NCBI RefSeq assembly: GCF_010550675.1
Contig: NZ_JAAGOA010000009.1
Coordinates: 186,001 to 250,000 of the forward strand
DNA length: 64,000 bases
Direction: 5' to 3'
Origin: Phytoactinopolyspora halotolerans
GTDB taxonomy: Bacteria; Actinomycetota; Actinomycetes; Jiangellales; Jiangellaceae
Numbering within the stretch: position 1 is the stretch's first letter; each line of letters begins with the position of its first letter. The translations under genes and the position numbers were made by a program. The notes beneath the pieces were generated by a model, which worked only from the letters and a program-made list of their open reading frames with translations, did not search any database and was not told the origin of the DNA. Shown here piece after piece: positions 13,837 through 21,657 of this stretch.

Positions 13837-14532
13837 TCAGTGGATGCCGCACTCCGTCTTGGCCTTGCCCGCCCAGCGGCCCGCCCGCGGATCCTCTCCG
13901 TCCGACACGGGTTGCGTGCACGGCTCGCATCCGATGGAGGCGTAGCCGAGCTGCTGCAGCGGATTGACCAGGATGTCGTGCTCGGCGATGTAGTCGTCCA
14001 CCTGCTCGTCCGACCAGGTCGCCAGCGGATTCACCTTGACCTTCTTGCGCCGCGGGTCCCAGCCGACCACCGGAGCCGCGGCACGGCCCGGGTTCTCCGC
14101 CCGCCGCACCCCGCTGGCCCACGCGGTATACGGGCGGATCGCGCGGTCCAGCGGGAACACCTTGCGCATCGCGCAGCACAGGTCCGGGTACGTCTCGTAC
14201 AGCTTGCCGTAGCTGGCCTCGTGCTCGGGGACCGTCAGCGGATGCCCGACCGTCTCGACGGTGATGTCGTAGGCCGAGGCGATGGCGTCTCGGGTCCCGA
14301 TCGTCTCAGCGAAGTGGTAGCCCGTGTCCAGGAACAGCACGCGGATGCCGGGTACCGCCTGTGACGCCACGTGGCAGAGCACGCCGTCGGCCATCGAGGC
14401 GGTGAGCACGAACGCGTCCCCGAACGTCTCGTGTGCCCAGCGGACCACGTCCTGTGCCGGCGCGTCCTCGAGATCGCGCCCGGCCGTTGTGGCCATCCGC
14501 TGGAGTTCGTCGGTGGGAATGCGGGTCGTCAT
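13837..14532 (-). CDS. cysH: Phosphoadenylyl/adenylyl-sulfate reductase (CysH)
   Basis: A 231-residue cytoplasmic reductase that converts an activated sulfate nucleotide (APS or PAPS) to sulfite. The PP-loop-type nucleotide-binding region is in the N-terminal half (LTASMADGVLCHVAS), and the C-terminus has the catalytic cysteine motif KTECGIH. The cysteine pairs in LCCAMRK and GCEPC are those that bind a [4Fe-4S] cluster in the assimilatory APS-reductase type, so APS is the likelier substrate. It is the last gene of a three-gene operon and its ATG overlaps the stop of the PLP enzyme gene upstream. No sulfite reductase or ATP sulfurylase gene is nearby, so the sulfite may be used locally, or the other assimilation genes may lie elsewhere. 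Confidence 0.93.
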   Translation of the reverse strand: MTTRIPTDELQRMATTAGRDLEDAPAQDVVRWAHETFGDAFVLTASMADGVLCHVASQAVPGIRVLFLDTGYHFAETIGTRDAIASAYDITVETVGHPLTVPEHEASYGKLYETYPDLCCAMRKVFPLDRAIRPYTAWASGVRRAENPGRAAAPVVGWDPRRKKVKVNPLATWSDEQVDDYIAEHDILVNPLQQLGYASIGCEPCTQPVSDGEDPRAGRWAGKAKTECGIH

Positions 14533-16637
14533 CTACTGCCTCCATCGAGATCCACATGCTGCAGGATCAGGCCAAGCTTGCGGAGCGCATCTGCGACGTC
14601 GGCCAGTGTCCGGTCCACGCGCTCAATCCATAGTCGGCCACGAGTGTGGTCGAACACAATCTCTGACACCGTCGTCGCACCGATCGCTACCCGCAGACCG
14701 CCGATCCATTCACCGTCCTGCTGGTGGATCCGAACCGGCTGGCCGAGCTGGAAGGTCCGGCCCAGGACGGCGTCGTCGGACGGCACCAGGCCGCGCAGGT
14801 CCTGGGCGAGCATCCGGTAGACCTTCCGGCCCTGGCCCATGGTCAACGGTGTGCCGTCCGGGCGCCGCGCCAGGAAGGTGAAGATGGTCGGCAGATCGTC
14901 GAGGCCGCGCGTGTCCGGCTGGGGAATCGCCGTGTACGGACTCTCCACCAGGCTGATCTGGGGTGTGTCCTCGAGGATCTTCCGCAGCCCCGCGACCAGC
15001 AGACGCAGAACCTCGTCCCGGATCTCCGGCGAAGCGTTGTGGAACGAACGCATCTCCGCGAGCGCCGCTTCCCACCGCAGCAGCAATCCGGCGTTGGGCC
15101 CGCGTCGCGCGACCGCGCGTAGGTCACTCAGCGCCTCCGGCACGTCAGCGCGGGTCAGATAGTCCGCCATGCCGGCCGGGAGGTCCCGGCCCGCCGCCAG
15201 GCGTCCCGCGACCGTCGACGGGAGGATCACCGCACCGGAGAACGGCGGGCCGCCGAAGAACTTCGACCCGGTGACGATCACCATGTTGCCGTCCCGCAGA
15301 TGCTGCACCGCCGTGTTCTGGTCGATGCGCATCTGCGCGGCGTCCACCACCACGTCCAGCCGATCGCCGAACCGCTCCCGCCAGCGCAGCACCGTCTCCC
15401 GGCGCGGCAGCCGGATGCCGGTCTTGGAGCCTTCCACCACGTGCACGAGGACCCGGCCTGTGTCGACCTGTGCCTCGATCGCCGCTTCGACCGCCGCCTC
15501 GACCTGTTCGGGGGGCAGCATCTCACCGTTCGGGTCGCGCAGATCGACAATGGAGGTCGTGACCTTCGCCGGGTCGAATCCGCCGATCGGCTCCCCCGCC
15601 ACGCACGGGTTCCCGGACGGCAGCCGTCCGCAGAAGTGCCGGCCGGCAGCGGCGTAGGTGCTGCCGCTGCCGATCTCGTACTGGCCGACCACGACCGAAT
15701 GCACCGGCTCGTCCGCGCTCAACGCGGCCAGCAACGCCACCAGCTCGGCGTCGGTGCCGGACGGGGTGAAGACCACCTCGGCATCGCCCCGTACGCCGAG
15801 CGCCGCCAGCAGTGTCCGCCGCATCACCGTGGTGTGCTCGTCCACACACCGGCCGAGCTCGTAGCCGAGTGCGGCCTCGATCAGCCGGCGCCGAAGCCGG
15901 CTCGCCGCGTCGAACCCACGGGTCGTCGGCGACGACGCCGTACATGAGCCCAGCAGGCTGGTCCACGGGGTCGGGCTCGGCGAGATCCCGTACGAGTTCA
16001 CACCGCCGTGCCAGTCGATCGTCTGCCGGGTATCGCCGCCGCTGGCCAGCAGCACCTCGGTGGGCGCGGCGAACGGCAAGGCCCGGGCGGCCCGGTCGAT
16101 CTCGCTGTCCGGGCACGGGTCCAGCCCGTCGCGTTCGGCCACGAACTCCGCGATCCGCGCGGCGATCGCCTGGGCCGATGCCACATCATCGAGCCGGTCG
16201 TGCAGGTCCAGCAGCTCGGTCGCGTTGCCCGCAAGCGGCGAGAACGCGTTGAACGCCGCCGGCTCGCCGCGGGCGGACAGGCTGGTCGCGCCGTATGCCA
16301 GCGCGGTGGCGTGGGCGAGGATGCGGTGCGCCCAGTCCGGCGTGCGCAGCGTCTCGGGCCCGTCCACGGCGCTGCTGGCGGCCGTCCGGGTCAACTCGAT
16401 CGTCTCGCGCAGAATCAGCGCCGACCCGGTGACCGTCGCCGCCCGGTCCGGACGCAGGGTCAACGTCGTGCCGTCACACACGAACGGCCGGGACTGCGCC
16501 GGGTCGATACGGACCGACAGTCCGGCCAGCCGGGCACCGATCTCGGGCAGCCCGCACGCTTCGATCACGGGCCATGGAACCGGTGGTGTCTCCCCCGAAC
16601 TCTCCAGCACCGCCGGGGCTAAGGATGCATCGGTCAC
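14529..16637 (-). CDS. PLP-dependent enzyme, fold type I (class V-like), unusually long
   Basis: A 702-residue protein. The PLP fold-type I core lies in roughly residues 190-560: a small-residue phosphate-binding segment (TPSGTDAELVALLAALS), a cofactor-ring aspartate motif (VVVDAAQMRIDQ) and the Schiff-base lysine K459 in VTGSKFFGGPPFSG. The motif spacing is like class V aminotransferases and cysteine desulfurases, but the protein is nearly twice their length, with an about 190-residue N-terminal region I do not recognise and a C-terminal domain. The gene overlaps both neighbours by ATGA, so it works with the group II enzyme and CysH. Reaction unknown; a desulfurase, lyase or aminotransferase are all possible. 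Confidence 0.75.
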   Translation of the reverse strand: MTDASLAPAVLESSGETPPVPWPVIEACGLPEIGARLAGLSVRIDPAQSRPFVCDGTTLTLRPDRAATVTGSALILRETIELTRTAASSAVDGPETLRTPDWAHRILAHATALAYGATSLSARGEPAAFNAFSPLAGNATELLDLHDRLDDVASAQAIAARIAEFVAERDGLDPCPDSEIDRAARALPFAAPTEVLLASGGDTRQTIDWHGGVNSYGISPSPTPWTSLLGSCTASSPTTRGFDAASRLRRRLIEAALGYELGRCVDEHTTVMRRTLLAALGVRGDAEVVFTPSGTDAELVALLAALSADEPVHSVVVGQYEIGSGSTYAAAGRHFCGRLPSGNPCVAGEPIGGFDPAKVTTSIVDLRDPNGEMLPPEQVEAAVEAAIEAQVDTGRVLVHVVEGSKTGIRLPRRETVLRWRERFGDRLDVVVDAAQMRIDQNTAVQHLRDGNMVIVTGSKFFGGPPFSGAVILPSTVAGRLAAGRDLPAGMADYLTRADVPEALSDLRAVARRGPNAGLLLRWEAALAEMRSFHNASPEIRDEVLRLLVAGLRKILEDTPQISLVESPYTAIPQPDTRGLDDLPTIFTFLARRPDGTPLTMGQGRKVYRMLAQDLRGLVPSDDAVLGRTFQLGQPVRIHQQDGEWIGGLRVAIGATTVSEIVFDHTRGRLWIERVDRTLADVADALRKLGLILQHVDLDGGSR

Positions 16638-17986
16638 GTGTCGTATCGGCCTTCCAGCTGGTCAAGGACGGCTGCCGCGACGTCCGCTCCCGCCTCCAGA
16701 CGAGAGTTGACGCCGTACAGGGTGGCGCGGGTGTCCCCGGTGCCTGCCGCGGGCGCGCCGTCCACCGCCCAGCCCAGGTCATCAAGGAACTCACCGACCA
16801 CCGGAACGTGCGTCGGGTTGACGATCAGATGGATGCTGTCGGGATCGCGCTGCCGGTCGATCCGCCACCCCCGGGTCTCCAAGCGGTCAGCCACGGCCAT
16901 CATGTCCACCGAGTCCGAGCCGACGGCGAACACGCTGATCGGCGGTTCGCCGACGACGTGCAGCCCGGGGATCGCGCGGATCCCTTCCTGTAGCCGGTCG
17001 GTCGCGTCGAACACTTTGCGGAAGATCTCCCGGTAGCCGGCCCTGCCCTCGAACGTGATCGCCGCCCAAGAGCCGGCGATCGCGCCGCCGGAGCGCGTGC
17101 CCAGCAGCGTCGGCGAGGCCAGGATGCCGCCCGGCCAGTCCGTATATGCGGCGAACTGAAAGCGGCGCAGGCGGCGATCGGCGTACAGGATGCTCGACGA
17201 GCCCTTGGGCCCGTAACCGTACTTGTGCATATCTGCCGTCATCGACGTCACACCGGGCACACTGAGGTCGAACGGCGGAACCTTGCGTCCGAGTTCCCGG
17301 GCGAACGGCAATGCGAAGCCGCCGATGGTGGCGTCGATGTGCAGCCCGATGCCGCGCTCCTGCGCGACCACGCCGAGGTCCTCGATCGGATCGACGACGC
17401 CGTACGGAAAGCACGGGGCCGACGCGCAGGCCACGATGGTGGACTCGGTGATGGCGGCGGAGAACGCCGCGGGGTCCGCACGGAAGGTGTGGTCGACCGG
17501 CACCGGCACCGGGCGCACGCCCAGCAGGTCACCCGCCTTCAGAAACGCCGGATGCGCGGTGACCGGGACGACCATCTCCGGCGCGGTGATCTCCGGCCGC
17601 TCGGCGCGTGCCCGGTCCCGGTAGGCCTTGACCGCCAGGATGATGCTCTCGGTACCACCTGACGTCATGGTTCCCCCGGCGACCTGGGGGTCCGCGCCGA
17701 GCAAGTCGAGCAGCATCCACACGACCTGCTTCTCCATGGTGGCGATGCTGGGGAACGCCGTCGGCCCGAGGATGTTCTCGGAGGCGAACTCGCGATACGC
17801 GTCGTGCACGATCTCGTCGTGCTCCTCGCCGGCCCAGTAGATCAGGCTCCAGATGCGGCCACGACGCCAGTCCACATCGTCGTCGCGGAGGGAACGTAGC
17901 CGCGCGCGCAGCTGGTCCGCCGGTACGCCGTGCTCGGGAAAAGGCACGTACGGCTCGCCGGACTCCGATTCTGCAGAGAACGTCAT
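16634..17986 (-). CDS. PLP-dependent group II decarboxylase / sphingosine-1-phosphate-lyase-like enzyme
   Basis: A 450-residue PLP enzyme, first in the three-gene operon. It resembles the sphingosine-1-phosphate lyase branch of the group II decarboxylase family: AGGTMTSGGTESIILAVKAY near residue 120, the aspartate segment LHIDATIGGF, and the PLP lysine K255 in DMHKYGYGPKGSS. The start at 17986 has an AGAGGA-type ribosome binding site; an upstream in-frame start at 18040 is less likely. In bacteria this family also includes amino-acid decarboxylases and phosphoamine C-C lyases, and nothing here decides between them. Paired with a second PLP enzyme and CysH, it may produce an amine or an aldehyde building block. 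Confidence 0.8.
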   Translation of the reverse strand: MTFSAESESGEPYVPFPEHGVPADQLRARLRSLRDDDVDWRRGRIWSLIYWAGEEHDEIVHDAYREFASENILGPTAFPSIATMEKQVVWMLLDLLGADPQVAGGTMTSGGTESIILAVKAYRDRARAERPEITAPEMVVPVTAHPAFLKAGDLLGVRPVPVPVDHTFRADPAAFSAAITESTIVACASAPCFPYGVVDPIEDLGVVAQERGIGLHIDATIGGFALPFARELGRKVPPFDLSVPGVTSMTADMHKYGYGPKGSSSILYADRRLRRFQFAAYTDWPGGILASPTLLGTRSGGAIAGSWAAITFEGRAGYREIFRKVFDATDRLQEGIRAIPGLHVVGEPPISVFAVGSDSVDMMAVADRLETRGWRIDRQRDPDSIHLIVNPTHVPVVGEFLDDLGWAVDGAPAAGTGDTRATLYGVNSRLEAGADVAAAVLDQLEGRYDT

Positions 17987-18209
17987 CGATGTAGGTCCTC
18001 TTCCTTCATCGCCCGCGCCGACCGCATCACCGATGCGCACGGCACCCTCCCGACTCTCACCGGCCCGCCGGTCGACAGCCGCTTAGACGGGTCGGTTATA
18101 TCTTCGTTACCTAGCCGAAACCATACCTCTCGCCACGATTCGATCCAAGCTCCGCCCGCGTTGCGGAGTGTGTCGTAGCCTGGCATCCCGACGCAGGAGA
18201 CGACCGAGG

Positions 18210-19634
18210 ATGACAGACCGCATGAACCCGGGACGCGACATCTACGCGAACCGGACGCTGAACCTCAGATCCATCGAGGCGATCGGCTATGACATGGACT
18301 ACACCCTGCTCCACTACCGCACCGAGGAGTGGGAGGGCGCCGCGTTCGAGCACGCCCGCCGGCTGCTGGCGGAACGGGGCTTTCCGGTGGCCGATCTGAC
18401 CTTCGAGGCCGACCGCTATCTGCAGGGCCTGGTGATCGACCTCGATCTAGGCAATCTGGTGAAGGCGACCCGCTTCGGGTACGTGATCCAGGCACAGCAC
18501 GGCACCTCCCAGCTCACCTTCGACGAGCTGCGCAAGACCTACGCCAATCTCTTCGTCGATCTCGGCGAGCCTCGGTTCCGGTTCCTCAACACCATGTTCT
18601 CCATCTCCGAGGCGGCGCTGTACGCCCAGCTGGTCGATCGGCTGGATGCCGAGGAGATCACCGGCCCGCTCGGCTACGACGAGCTGTACCGTGAGGTGTC
18701 GTCCGCGCTGGACCAGTCACACGCGATCGGAACGCTCAAAGCCGAGATCGCCGCCGACCCGGACCGGTTCTGCGACCTCGACCCGGACACCGCACAGACG
18801 CTGCTCGACCAGCGCCTCGCCGGGAAGCGGCTGCTGTTGATCACCAACAGCGAATGGTCCTACACCCGCGCCATGATGAGCTACGCGTTCGACCGGCACG
18901 TGCCGAGCGGGTCGTGGCGCGACCTGTTCGACATCGTCGTGGTCGCGGCGGCCAAGCCGCGCTTCTTCGCCGAGTACATCCCGGCGTTCCGGATGGTCGA
19001 CACCGAGCGAGGACTGCTGCAACCGCACCGCGGGCCGCTCCAGGTGGGCGACGTGTATCACGGCGCGTGCGCCCGGCTGGTGGAGCAGAGCCTCGGCCTG
19101 GACGGCTCGCACATCCTGTACGCCGGCGACCACCTGTTCGGCGACGTGCACGTCACCAAGTCGGTGTTGCGCTGGCGCACCGCGCTGATCATGCGCGAGC
19201 TGGAGACGGACATCGCCGACGCGAACCGGTTCGCCAAGGATGAGGCGGAGCTGCGCAGGTTGATGGCGCAGAAGATCGAGCTCGAGGACATGGTGGCGCA
19301 AGCCCGCCTGGCCGAGGTACGGCGCAGCGCGGACGAGTCGGCGCCGGAGTGGGATGGCCCGTCCATCTCGCAACTGCTGGAACAGCTGCGCGAGCTCGAC
19401 CAGCGCATCACTCCCCTGGCGAAGGCCTCCGCCGAGTTGGGCAATCCCACCTGGGGGCCCATGATGCGCGCCGGGAATGACAAGAGCATGTTCGCCCGGC
19501 AGGTCGAACGCTACGCGGACGTCTACACGTCCCGGGTGGCGAATTTCGGGCTGCGCACGCCGTACGCCTTCCTGCGCGCCGCTCGCACGAGCCTGCCCCA
19601 TGACGTCATTTCGTGGGATTCCATCCAGGAATGA
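18210..19634 (+). CDS. HAD-superfamily 5'-nucleotidase (HAD-IG type)
   Basis: A 474-residue cytoplasmic phosphatase of the HAD-IG 5'-nucleotidase family, related to eukaryotic cytosolic purine 5'-nucleotidases. HAD motif I is IGYDMDYTLLHY near the N-terminus, motif II is LLLITNSEWSY, and the late acidic motif is LYAGDHLFGDVH. The C-terminal region (LRRLMAQKIELEDMVAQARL) is probably an alpha-helical extension. An AGGAG site 10 nt upstream supports the ATG at 18210; an ATG at 18222 is an alternative. It is transcribed divergently from the PLP/cysH operon and stands alone. Likely role: dephosphorylation of purine nucleoside monophosphates. Confidence 0.88.
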   Translation: MTDRMNPGRDIYANRTLNLRSIEAIGYDMDYTLLHYRTEEWEGAAFEHARRLLAERGFPVADLTFEADRYLQGLVIDLDLGNLVKATRFGYVIQAQHGTSQLTFDELRKTYANLFVDLGEPRFRFLNTMFSISEAALYAQLVDRLDAEEITGPLGYDELYREVSSALDQSHAIGTLKAEIAADPDRFCDLDPDTAQTLLDQRLAGKRLLLITNSEWSYTRAMMSYAFDRHVPSGSWRDLFDIVVVAAAKPRFFAEYIPAFRMVDTERGLLQPHRGPLQVGDVYHGACARLVEQSLGLDGSHILYAGDHLFGDVHVTKSVLRWRTALIMRELETDIADANRFAKDEAELRRLMAQKIELEDMVAQARLAEVRRSADESAPEWDGPSISQLLEQLRELDQRITPLAKASAELGNPTWGPMMRAGNDKSMFARQVERYADVYTSRVANFGLRTPYAFLRAARTSLPHDVISWDSIQE

Positions 19635-19702
19635 CATGACGGTGACGCGTCGGTGAATTCTTCGCGTGCGGCATCGGCGCGGCTGCACGGCATAAATAAG
19701 AA

Positions 19703-19737
19703 GGTCCGCGTGCACCGGTTCTCGGTGCACGCGGACC
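19703..19737 (-). terminator. Strong intrinsic terminator, 15-bp perfect stem
   Basis: GGTCCGCGTGCACCG and its exact complement are separated by a 5-base loop. Read on the minus strand the stem is followed by TTCTTATTT, so it is best oriented to end the small transcript that starts near 20030. On the plus strand it follows the nucleotidase gene by 70 bp and could also stop that transcript, but there the tail is CTTATCCC. Confidence 0.8.
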
Positions 19738-19866
19738 CTTATCCCCCGTGTATGACTTTCGGATTTGCGTACCTCAGGCGCCTACTGCCGTGCATTCCCC
19801 CGTGCGAAGCACTACGGCAGGCCCAAAGGCGTTCGATCACGCCCCCTGACCATCAGGGAACCATTC
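19738..19866 (-). ncRNA. Candidate structured 3' RNA of the small-peptide transcript
   Basis: Non-coding stretch between the 23-codon peptide gene and its terminator. On the minus strand there are nested inverted repeats: CTGCCGT with ACGGCAG enclosing a GTGC-TTC-GCAC hairpin, a GGCG..CGCC stem, and a CCCTGA/TCAGGG hairpin at 19844-19858. The 9-mer CACGGGGGA occurs twice. No open reading frame with a properly spaced ribosome binding site was found. I infer a structured 3' region or a regulatory RNA; I do not recognise an Rfam family. Two TCCCCCGTG motifs on the plus strand recall C-rich-loop sRNAs, but the match is too weak to claim. Confidence 0.4.
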
Positions 19867-19873
19867 GGACAAA

Positions 19874-19945
19874 CTACCCAAGCAAGCCGAGAACGAGGTT
19901 GACAATCTGGTCGAGGAGATCGGTCAGGACGTCTACGAGATACAT
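19874..19945 (-). CDS. Small amphipathic peptide, 23 residues
   Basis: A short gene too small for normal ORF calling. ATG at 19945, stop TAG at 19874, and a near-perfect ribosome binding site GGAGGGA five bases upstream (19951-19957). The peptide begins MYLVDVLTDLLD and ends QIVNLVLGLLG. Polar residues D5, T8, D9, D12, Q13 and N16 fall on one helical face and Leu/Val/Ile on the other, so it should form an anionic amphipathic helix at a membrane. It has its own promoter (20038-20066) and terminator (19703-19737), which argues that it is a real gene. Function unknown: a surface-active or signalling peptide, or the short coding part of a dual-function RNA. Confidence 0.65.
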   Translation of the reverse strand: MYLVDVLTDLLDQIVNLVLGLLG

Positions 19946-20037
19946 GCTCTTCCCTCCGTTCGAGCATCTTCCGAAATGGTGAATCGCCTGATCCCTAGCT
20001 TGCCGGTCCGGACGGATCCGGTCGATCCATGGCTATG

Positions 20038-20066
20038 ACTATAGCGATGACACATTGCATCGTAAA
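20038..20066 (-). promoter_or_regulatory. Sigma70-type promoter of the small-peptide transcript
   Basis: On the minus strand TTTACG (20066-20061) and TATAGT (20043-20038) are separated by exactly 17 bp, one of the best vegetative promoter matches in the window. Transcription should start near 20031 and give a leader of about 85 nt before the peptide ATG at 19945. Confidence 0.7.
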
Positions 20067-20217
20067 GAGTTTCTGAGAATTGTTTGGAAGCGCCCCGGAG
20101 CGGTCGTGACTAAGGCGTGACTAACGTCCGTGTCATTGTCATGACAGCCGGTGCGCGGTCGGTCCCGTCCGCCCGGTAATCTCGTGATCACCGCCACCGA
20201 GCCTGCATGGAGAGACG

Positions 20218-21657
20218 ATGCACCGACGCGCCCGCCGCCATCCCGTACCGTTGCTGACCGCAGCCGTGCTGGTGGGAGCTATCGTCGCAGGCTGCTCCTC
20301 GGACGACGACGGATCGTCCGCGAGTGAGGCGCCGCCCGCGTCCGCCACCGCGGACGCCACCGCCTCCGGGACCGGCACCCCGTCCCCCACGGAATCCGCG
20401 CTGCCCCTGGCCGAATTCCCGGACACGCCCGCTGGGCAACAAGCGCGCTGGGTGCTCGAACAGCTCGCGGCCGAGACAGGGCCGGACGCGCAGAATGCGG
20501 CCGAACGGTTCAGTGACGTCTTCCTTGCCGAGATACCGGCCGACCAGGTGTCCGCGACGTTCGACGGCCTCCGGGAGCTCGGGCCGTTCACACCGGTCGA
20601 ATACTCGGGCGATGCGCGTCAGGCCATGGTGGAGCTGGTCGGCTCCGGGAGTTCGCGGTACCGGATGAGTCTGGGGGTCGACCGGGACGACGCGATCAGC
20701 GGTCTTTTCGTGCAGCCGGCCGCGGAGGCTCCGACGGTGACGAGCTGGTCGGAGTTCACCGCGGCGCTGAGCGACACCGGTGCCGATGTCGCCCTTTATG
20801 CGGCCCGGGACGACGGCGGAACGTGGGCACCGCTGCATCAGACCTCGCCCGATGAGCTCCGTCCGCTGGGTTCGATGTTCAAGCTGTACGTGCTCGGCGC
20901 CGTCCAGCGGGCCGTCCTCGACGGCGATGTCAACTGGGACGATACGCTCACCGTCACCGACGAGGTGCGCAGCCTTCCCAGCGGCGAGCTTCAGGACGCC
21001 CCGGACGGGGCGGGGGTCACGGTGGCCGAGGCAGCCGAGAAGATGATCTCCATCAGCGATAACACAGCTACCGACATGCTCATCGATCTGGTCGGCCGGG
21101 ACTCGGTGGAGGCCGCCGTGGCAGACATGGGTCACCATGACCCCGCCGCGATGCAGCCGTTCCTCACCACCGGCGAATTCTTCCGGCTGGGCTGGACCGA
21201 CCCTGACCTCCCCGACCGATGGTCCGACGCCACGGTCGACGAGCGACGCTCCATCCTCGCCGACCTCCCCGCCGACATCTCCGCGGTGGATGTCCCCGCC
21301 GTCACGGCCGAACCCCGGTGGGAATCCGGCATCGAGTGGTTCGCTGCCCCCGCCGACGTCGCCGCCGCCCACCGCTCACTCCAAGAACTCGCCTCCCAGG
21401 ACGAGGCAGACACCGTACGCGACCTGCTCGCGGTCAACTCGGGCCTGGCGATCGACGCCGGTGACTGGCCCTACGTCGCCTTCAAGGGCGGCAGCTCCGC
21501 CGGCGTGCTGGCGTTCTCCTGGTACCTCGAGAACCCCGACGGCATCGGTCATACTCTGGTCGTCCAGCTCCGCTCCGACAACCCCAACGCGGTGGCCGAC
21601 CAGGCCTACGTCACCACCGTCGTCCAGCAGGCGTTCGACCTCCTCGCGGACGGATAG
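20218..21657 (+). CDS. Class A beta-lactamase-like serine hydrolase, lipoprotein
   Basis: A 479-residue exported lipoprotein. The signal peptide has a basic N-terminus and ends in a lipobox with the modified cysteine at C26 (VGAIVAGC), followed by a Ser/Thr/Ala-rich linker to about residue 65 and a small domain to about 170. The C-terminal domain has the penicilloyl-serine-transferase motifs: SxxK as S219-K222 (SMFK), SDN as S280-N282, and K423 in KGGS at the KTG position. It is longer than ordinary beta-lactamases (about 290 residues). It may be a true beta-lactamase, a peptidoglycan-related hydrolase or a non-hydrolytic receptor. KGG instead of KTG is a mild departure seen in this group. 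Transcribed alone. Confidence 0.85.
   Translation: MHRRARRHPVPLLTAAVLVGAIVAGCSSDDDGSSASEAPPASATADATASGTGTPSPTESALPLAEFPDTPAGQQARWVLEQLAAETGPDAQNAAERFSDVFLAEIPADQVSATFDGLRELGPFTPVEYSGDARQAMVELVGSGSSRYRMSLGVDRDDAISGLFVQPAAEAPTVTSWSEFTAALSDTGADVALYAARDDGGTWAPLHQTSPDELRPLGSMFKLYVLGAVQRAVLDGDVNWDDTLTVTDEVRSLPSGELQDAPDGAGVTVAEAAEKMISISDNTATDMLIDLVGRDSVEAAVADMGHHDPAAMQPFLTTGEFFRLGWTDPDLPDRWSDATVDERRSILADLPADISAVDVPAVTAEPRWESGIEWFAAPADVAAAHRSLQELASQDEADTVRDLLAVNSGLAIDAGDWPYVAFKGGSSAGVLAFSWYLENPDGIGHTLVVQLRSDNPNAVADQAYVTTVVQQAFDLLADG

Follow-up and report, generated by a model that had tools for sequence, protein, structure and literature searches.

Gene layout at the locus

The window analyzed here, by which we mean the whole 64-kb stretch of DNA, carries on its minus strand a complete small gene coding for an amphipathic peptide of 23 residues (Table 1). 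The existence of such a gene had been proposed in an earlier note on this sequence, and the proposal is strongly supported by our results, as the promoter, ribosome binding site, open reading frame (ORF) and terminator were all found as it had described them. The promoter is the sole sigma70-like site within positions 19000-21000, an interval for which shuffled sequences gave a mean of 0.1 such sites. A promoter with 17-nt spacing and a similar position is also present in five relatives (G001, G002, G003, G004 and G021), and the Jiangella counterpart that aligns with the window promoter reads CTTGCG-17-TAGACT. The leader of the peptide mRNA is predicted to be about 86 nt long. Six ORFs of 18-35 aa with a strong Shine-Dalgarno (SD) sequence are found in the 64-kb window, and the 23-aa ORF alone among them is both hydrophobic and amphipathic.

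Table 1. Features of the peptide locus and of the genes that flank it, with positions in the window.
Feature	Positions	Strand	Basis and remarks
Direct repeat GTCAC-N6-GTCAC upstream of the promoter	20121-20106	-	Direct reading; candidate response-regulator site
Sigma70-type promoter, TTTACG-17-TATAGT	20066-20038	-	Promoter search of the window
5' hairpin at the predicted mRNA start	20029-19980	-	Shuffle comparison; loop with GUCCGGAC and AGCU
Ribosome binding site, GGAGGG	19957-19952	-	Direct reading of the sequence; 6 nt upstream of the ATG
ORF of 23 codons	19945-19874	-	ATG at 19945, stop ends at 19874; peptide MYLVDVLTDLLDQIVNLVLGLLG, predicted acidic amphipathic helix
3' UTR motif CACGGGGGA, copy 1	19804-19796	-	All 6 sequences of alignment A6 have the CGGGGGA core unchanged
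3' UTR motif CACGGGGGA, copy 2	19750-19742	-	All 6 sequences of alignment A6 have the ACGGGG core unchanged
Intrinsic terminator	19739-19701	-	Terminator search; 17 pairs by the program's count
Convergent HAD-type 5'-nucleotidase gene, PF05761	18168-19634	+	Pfam search; outside the peptide transcript; adjoins the peptide gene in 20/20 near-complete genomes
Beta-lactamase-like lipoprotein gene, next gene on the other side	20218-21657	+	

The terminator, whose stem shows many compensatory changes across relatives, is probably common to the peptide gene and to the convergent nucleotidase gene. As for the direct repeat upstream of the promoter, its arrangement resembles sites of OmpR-type response regulators, and it might, speculatively, be bound by such a regulator; repeats of the AGTCA/TGACA type, loosely similar to it, were seen by eye upstream of the gene in relatives. 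Two other interpretations of the region were considered. An antisense ORF of 109 aa (19653-19982, plus strand) is not conserved and was rejected as the real gene, because its frame is interrupted in G002 and G003. That the 23-codon ORF is a leader peptide or attenuator is unlikely, because its transcript contains no gene downstream: the terminator lies directly 3' of the ORF, and the convergent nucleotidase gene follows.

Conservation of the peptide gene and selection on its codons

A DNA search within the window's genus recovered the locus in G002 at 77% identity and, as a shorter match, in G003; both loci have the same layout as the window, with peptides MYLVDTLSDLINTIIDVIGSLLG and MGLLDSLLDTLGGLIDDVLALILGLL, respectively. 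We also traced the nucleotidase gene through the family, and listed the short SD-preceded ORFs on the opposite strand past its 3' end. A relative of the peptide adjoins the enzyme gene in 20 of the 20 genomes that bear it, and these relatives are 22-27 residues long; each of them has a terminator and is preceded by a strong ribosome binding site. They include MGLLDSLLELVGGLLDTLLGLLG in G001, MYHLLDSLANLVEEILKALGLA in G021, MHLATGLVDSLVELLNGLLEGVAGLL in G005 and MEHLSVLDSLLALLDGVLKGLLG in G006, as well as MDALSGLLDSIVALVNQLLGTVTGLLG or near variants of it in 12 Jiangella genomes (genus g5). When a profile built from the peptides of 11 relatives was used to search the genomes of the order, exactly one full-length copy was found in each of the 20 near-complete Jiangellales genomes, and two incomplete genomes (75 and 81%) had neither the peptide nor the nucleotidase. 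Decay of the ORF or loss of the ribosome binding site in relatives had been named in the earlier note as a ground for refutation, and both were looked for: a strong SD precedes every homologue, the ORFs are retained, and differences in length amount to whole codons throughout.

Outside the family, no full-length relative was detected among 296 Actinomycetes by a search that more diverged relatives could escape; the other matches in these genomes were short stretches, nearly all within long reading frames, with E >1e-4. The locus had no match in plasmid records (blastn), and searches of Pfam, NCBIfam, PHROGs and PDB returned no credible relative of the peptide even at E <=10, with matches at chance level alone. 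Likewise, searches of open-licence papers for Jiangella and for amphipathic small-ORF peptides of actinobacteria brought no account of such a gene to light. We conclude that the gene is real, and that it is inherited vertically, as a single copy, in the order Jiangellales.

In the 12 Jiangella ORFs, pN was 0.047 and pS 0.256 (pN/pS 0.18), and the columns that vary are 7 of 26 at the first codon position, 2 at the second and 18 at the third; the peptide is under purifying selection in this genus. When the window was compared to its nearest relative, G002, alone, pN (0.312) was not far under pS (0.452), values that point to a faster sequence drift between these two genomes, and the exchanges that separate them are mostly conservative as judged by eye. 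With regard to the character of the peptide, the helical hydrophobic moment at 100 degrees exceeded that of composition-matched shuffles in all 14 distinct peptides (P <0.0002 to 0.008), and the best helical angle was 95-100 degrees in 13 of them. Net charge across these 14 sequences ranges from -2 to -5, Lys occurs at most once, and Cys and Pro are absent. Most of the charged and strongly polar residues lie no more than about 60 degrees from a single line drawn along the helix, a pattern that is least clear in G006, and in the window peptide D5, D9 and D12 share a helical face, in agreement with the original description of three Asp on a single side. The codon-position pattern, together with the conserved amphipathicity, shows that the peptide itself is selected. 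From their sequences, these peptides are predicted to form an acidic alpha-helix with a narrow, Asp-bearing polar strip and a wide hydrophobic face, and at 22-27 aa they are too short to hold a signal peptide.

Conserved elements of the transcript

Beyond what the earlier note had described, the leader and the 3' UTR are conserved and structured, with the 3' elements being kept within genera. The 5' hairpin starts only a few bases from where the transcript is predicted to begin, and none of 200 shuffles of the window sequence reached its score under the grammar used. In several relatives the hairpin beats at least 95% of its own shuffles, and in others it does not or is weak; the letters of the stem vary among genera yet still pair, and TCCGGA and AGCT are kept in most loops. 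We consider this hairpin well supported in the window and moderately supported in the family, because the grammar was devised after inspection of the same sequences and because the automatic consensus fold is weak (-0.47 kcal/mol). The core of the loop is palindromic and reads GTCCGGAC, ATCCGGAT, TTCCGGAA or TACCGGTA in different relatives, so that its letters change and its self-complementarity is kept, with the exception of G003, where the core AACCAGAA breaks the pattern. Such a core could serve RNA dimerisation or be a DNA operator.

Downstream of the ORF, a 25-nt hairpin of the 3' UTR (GGTGGGCGCTyGGCGGCTCCCCACC, for example L011:761-785) scarcely varies across 14 Jiangella and Haloactinopolyspora sequences, in which its flanks drift. 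A near-exact search with this hairpin found it once per genome on nine contigs, belonging only to Jiangella, Haloactinopolyspora alba and one Actinomycetes MAG. It does not resemble the pair of CACGGGGGA motifs present in the window's group. No match at gathering score was obtained in the window with Rfam 15, and relaxing the threshold yielded chance-level matches in the region. Given how strongly these non-coding elements are conserved, part of the function could reside in the RNA.

The nucleotidase and the other neighbors

Across the 13 loci compared, the nucleotidase is the sole neighbor that is kept. The outer flanks vary by genus, and feature a PLP-dependent decarboxylase pair, a methionyl-tRNA synthetase-like N-terminus or a beta-lactamase-like gene; other neighbors were rejected as functional partners because these flanks differ from one genus to the next. 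In the window, two adjacent genes lie beside the nucleotidase at positions 14529-18040 of the minus strand, one of them PLP-dependent decarboxylase-like and the other an ORF of 702 aa with no Pfam match; they are also paired in G001 and G002. In some Jiangella genomes, the nucleotidase and the peptide gene are separated by a gap of 450-830 bases, with another ORF in between. By the search program's account, the nucleotidase match in G021 (L009, G021:C15:22768-23430) contains one in-frame TGA, which may reflect an assembly error, a difference of frame, the natural gene end or decay.

The PF05761 nucleotidase is scarce in the phylum, where 5 of 296 genomes carry it, the window's included, and in the class it was found in 19 of 197 genomes, all from the window's family. 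Its near-absence from the phylum outside the family suggests horizontal acquisition by an ancestor of the Jiangellales. It is possible that the nucleotidase and the peptide gene arrived, or were retained, as a pair, or else that a terminator common to both simply keeps them where they are. A tie of the peptide to PF05761 outside the order was rejected, as the four other genomes of the phylum with the enzyme have no comparable small ORF adjoining it.

Discussion

That the peptide is expressed, folds as a helix and binds membranes seems likely on the strength of its sequence features, and the explanation we favor, to which we would give an even chance, is that of a regulatory peptide, inherited vertically, that binds membranes and acts inside the cell. 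Its own housekeeping-type promoter would give rise to an mRNA of roughly 330 nt, from which a leaderless peptide of 22-27 residues would be translated; the peptide would then stay in the cell, bind to or insert into the cytoplasmic membrane and, once there, tune the properties of the membrane or a membrane protein. Its output would be set by the structured mRNA, in which the 5' hairpin might act in stability or translation control, and the genus-specific 3' elements might act in processing or in the binding of a partner. Because its retention is vertical and it is single-copy, the peptide is expected to have a steady cellular role, and we weakly infer, at somewhat short of even confidence, that it is an intracellular regulator rather than a toxin or a surfactant. 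With regard to known systems, the peptide recalls SpoVM in being on the same scale (26 residues), in its strong conservation within a lineage and in an amphipathic helix that would sit at the membrane inside the cell. SpoVM, however, is cationic and linked to the endospore, whereas the Jiangellales peptide is acidic, and no sequence relation between the two was seen.

Activity outside the cell would bring the peptide closer to the phenol-soluble modulins (PSMs), to which it had initially been likened in character, not in sequence; of this comparison the physical likeness stands (short, leaderless, predicted amphipathic helix), and no relation in sequence was found. Under such a reading, which we regard as rather unlikely, a leaderless formyl-Met amphipathic helix would be exported to act on surface tension, on the hyphal surface or on competitors. 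PSMs are about 20-45 residues long, those of the beta class are also net acidic, and PSMs are exported via the dedicated ABC transporter Pmt and located outside the cell. The size of the Jiangellales peptide, its leaderless start and its conserved amphipathicity would suit a surfactant, and like the PSMs of S. aureus and the PSM-like LspU, which are short amphipathic helices overlooked by annotation (PMC12607899), it is a short, leaderless peptide with a predicted alpha-helix, of a kind that annotation may miss. It differs from them, however, in being encoded in single copy per genome and in an actinobacterial order, in having at most one Lys, and in lacking sequence kinship to any family described in Pfam, NCBIfam, PHROGs or PDB, and no conserved exporter or operon partner lies beside the gene at the 13 loci compared. 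A type I toxin-antitoxin membrane toxin similar to TisB or Fst, which would depolarise the cell's own membrane and be restrained by an RNA together with the structured leader, appears quite unlikely to us. Pairs of this kind are usually patchy and mobile, whereas here one copy is found, in one place, in every near-complete genome. A predicted amphipathic helix of 22-27 residues whose polar strip is narrow, together with a structured mRNA leader, would nonetheless fit such a toxin. With TisB, Fst/Ldr, IbsC and DinQ the gene shares a small monocistronic mRNA, a structured leader and a peptide of about 20-30 residues in which a predicted hydrophobic helix bears a polar strip that is narrow (PMC8309996). 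In TisB, a 29-aa amphiphilic helix, the charged side chains on that strip include D5 (PMC8309996), and D5 is present in the window peptide too. Yet the Jiangellales peptides are net acidic, with at most one Lys, as opposed to the net-positive TisB, and their gene belongs to the core, in single copy and with a fixed location. In addition, no shared promoter for an antisense RNA was found between 300 bases before the ORF and 190 after it, where weak 8-of-12 matches occurred in 4 of 20 loci, although an antitoxin RNA might be encoded in trans. Inspection by eye showed no recognisable LexA site.

The conserved elements of the transcript raise the question of whether the RNA, and not the peptide, is the main product. 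It is unlikely, in our view, that the gene is primarily a regulatory or dual-function RNA, with the 5' loop and the 3' elements acting in trans and the peptide as a second output. This would account for a 25-nt 3' hairpin that is nearly invariant amid drifting surroundings, for the occurrence of CACGGGGGA twice in the window's group, and for a 5' loop kept across genera; it leaves the selection on the codons unexplained, however, and the 3' elements vary among genera while the peptide persists, and no Rfam family was matched. Similarly improbable is a more elaborate form of the same idea, namely a trans-acting dual-function RNA that would be core to the order and present in all Jiangellales, combining the 5' hairpin, with its covarying stem and conserved loop, and invariant 3' elements with the coding of an acidic membrane peptide whose Asp strip would either build an oligomer that conducts ions or protons or serve as the adaptor of a membrane enzyme. 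Lastly, short ORFs are common, and a promoter, an ORF and a terminator might fall together by chance where there is no gene. We consider this refuted, with next to no probability left to it: a chance arrangement is untenable because the locus is conserved across the order, in the same place, and it is further contradicted by purifying selection and by a combination of motifs that is unique in the window.

The gene is new and lineage-specific, and belongs to a known kind, that of the genes for small leaderless amphipathic peptides. What had appeared as an ORF of 23 residues is part of a small gene kept order-wide, with no relative in any of the libraries searched, and it illustrates that conserved micropeptide genes hide in the intergenic gaps of actinobacteria. 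As a single locus that encodes a single peptide, with 20 natural variants and UTR structures that are conserved, it provides a clean, testable system for the study of acidic amphipathic micropeptides in Gram-positive filamentous bacteria.
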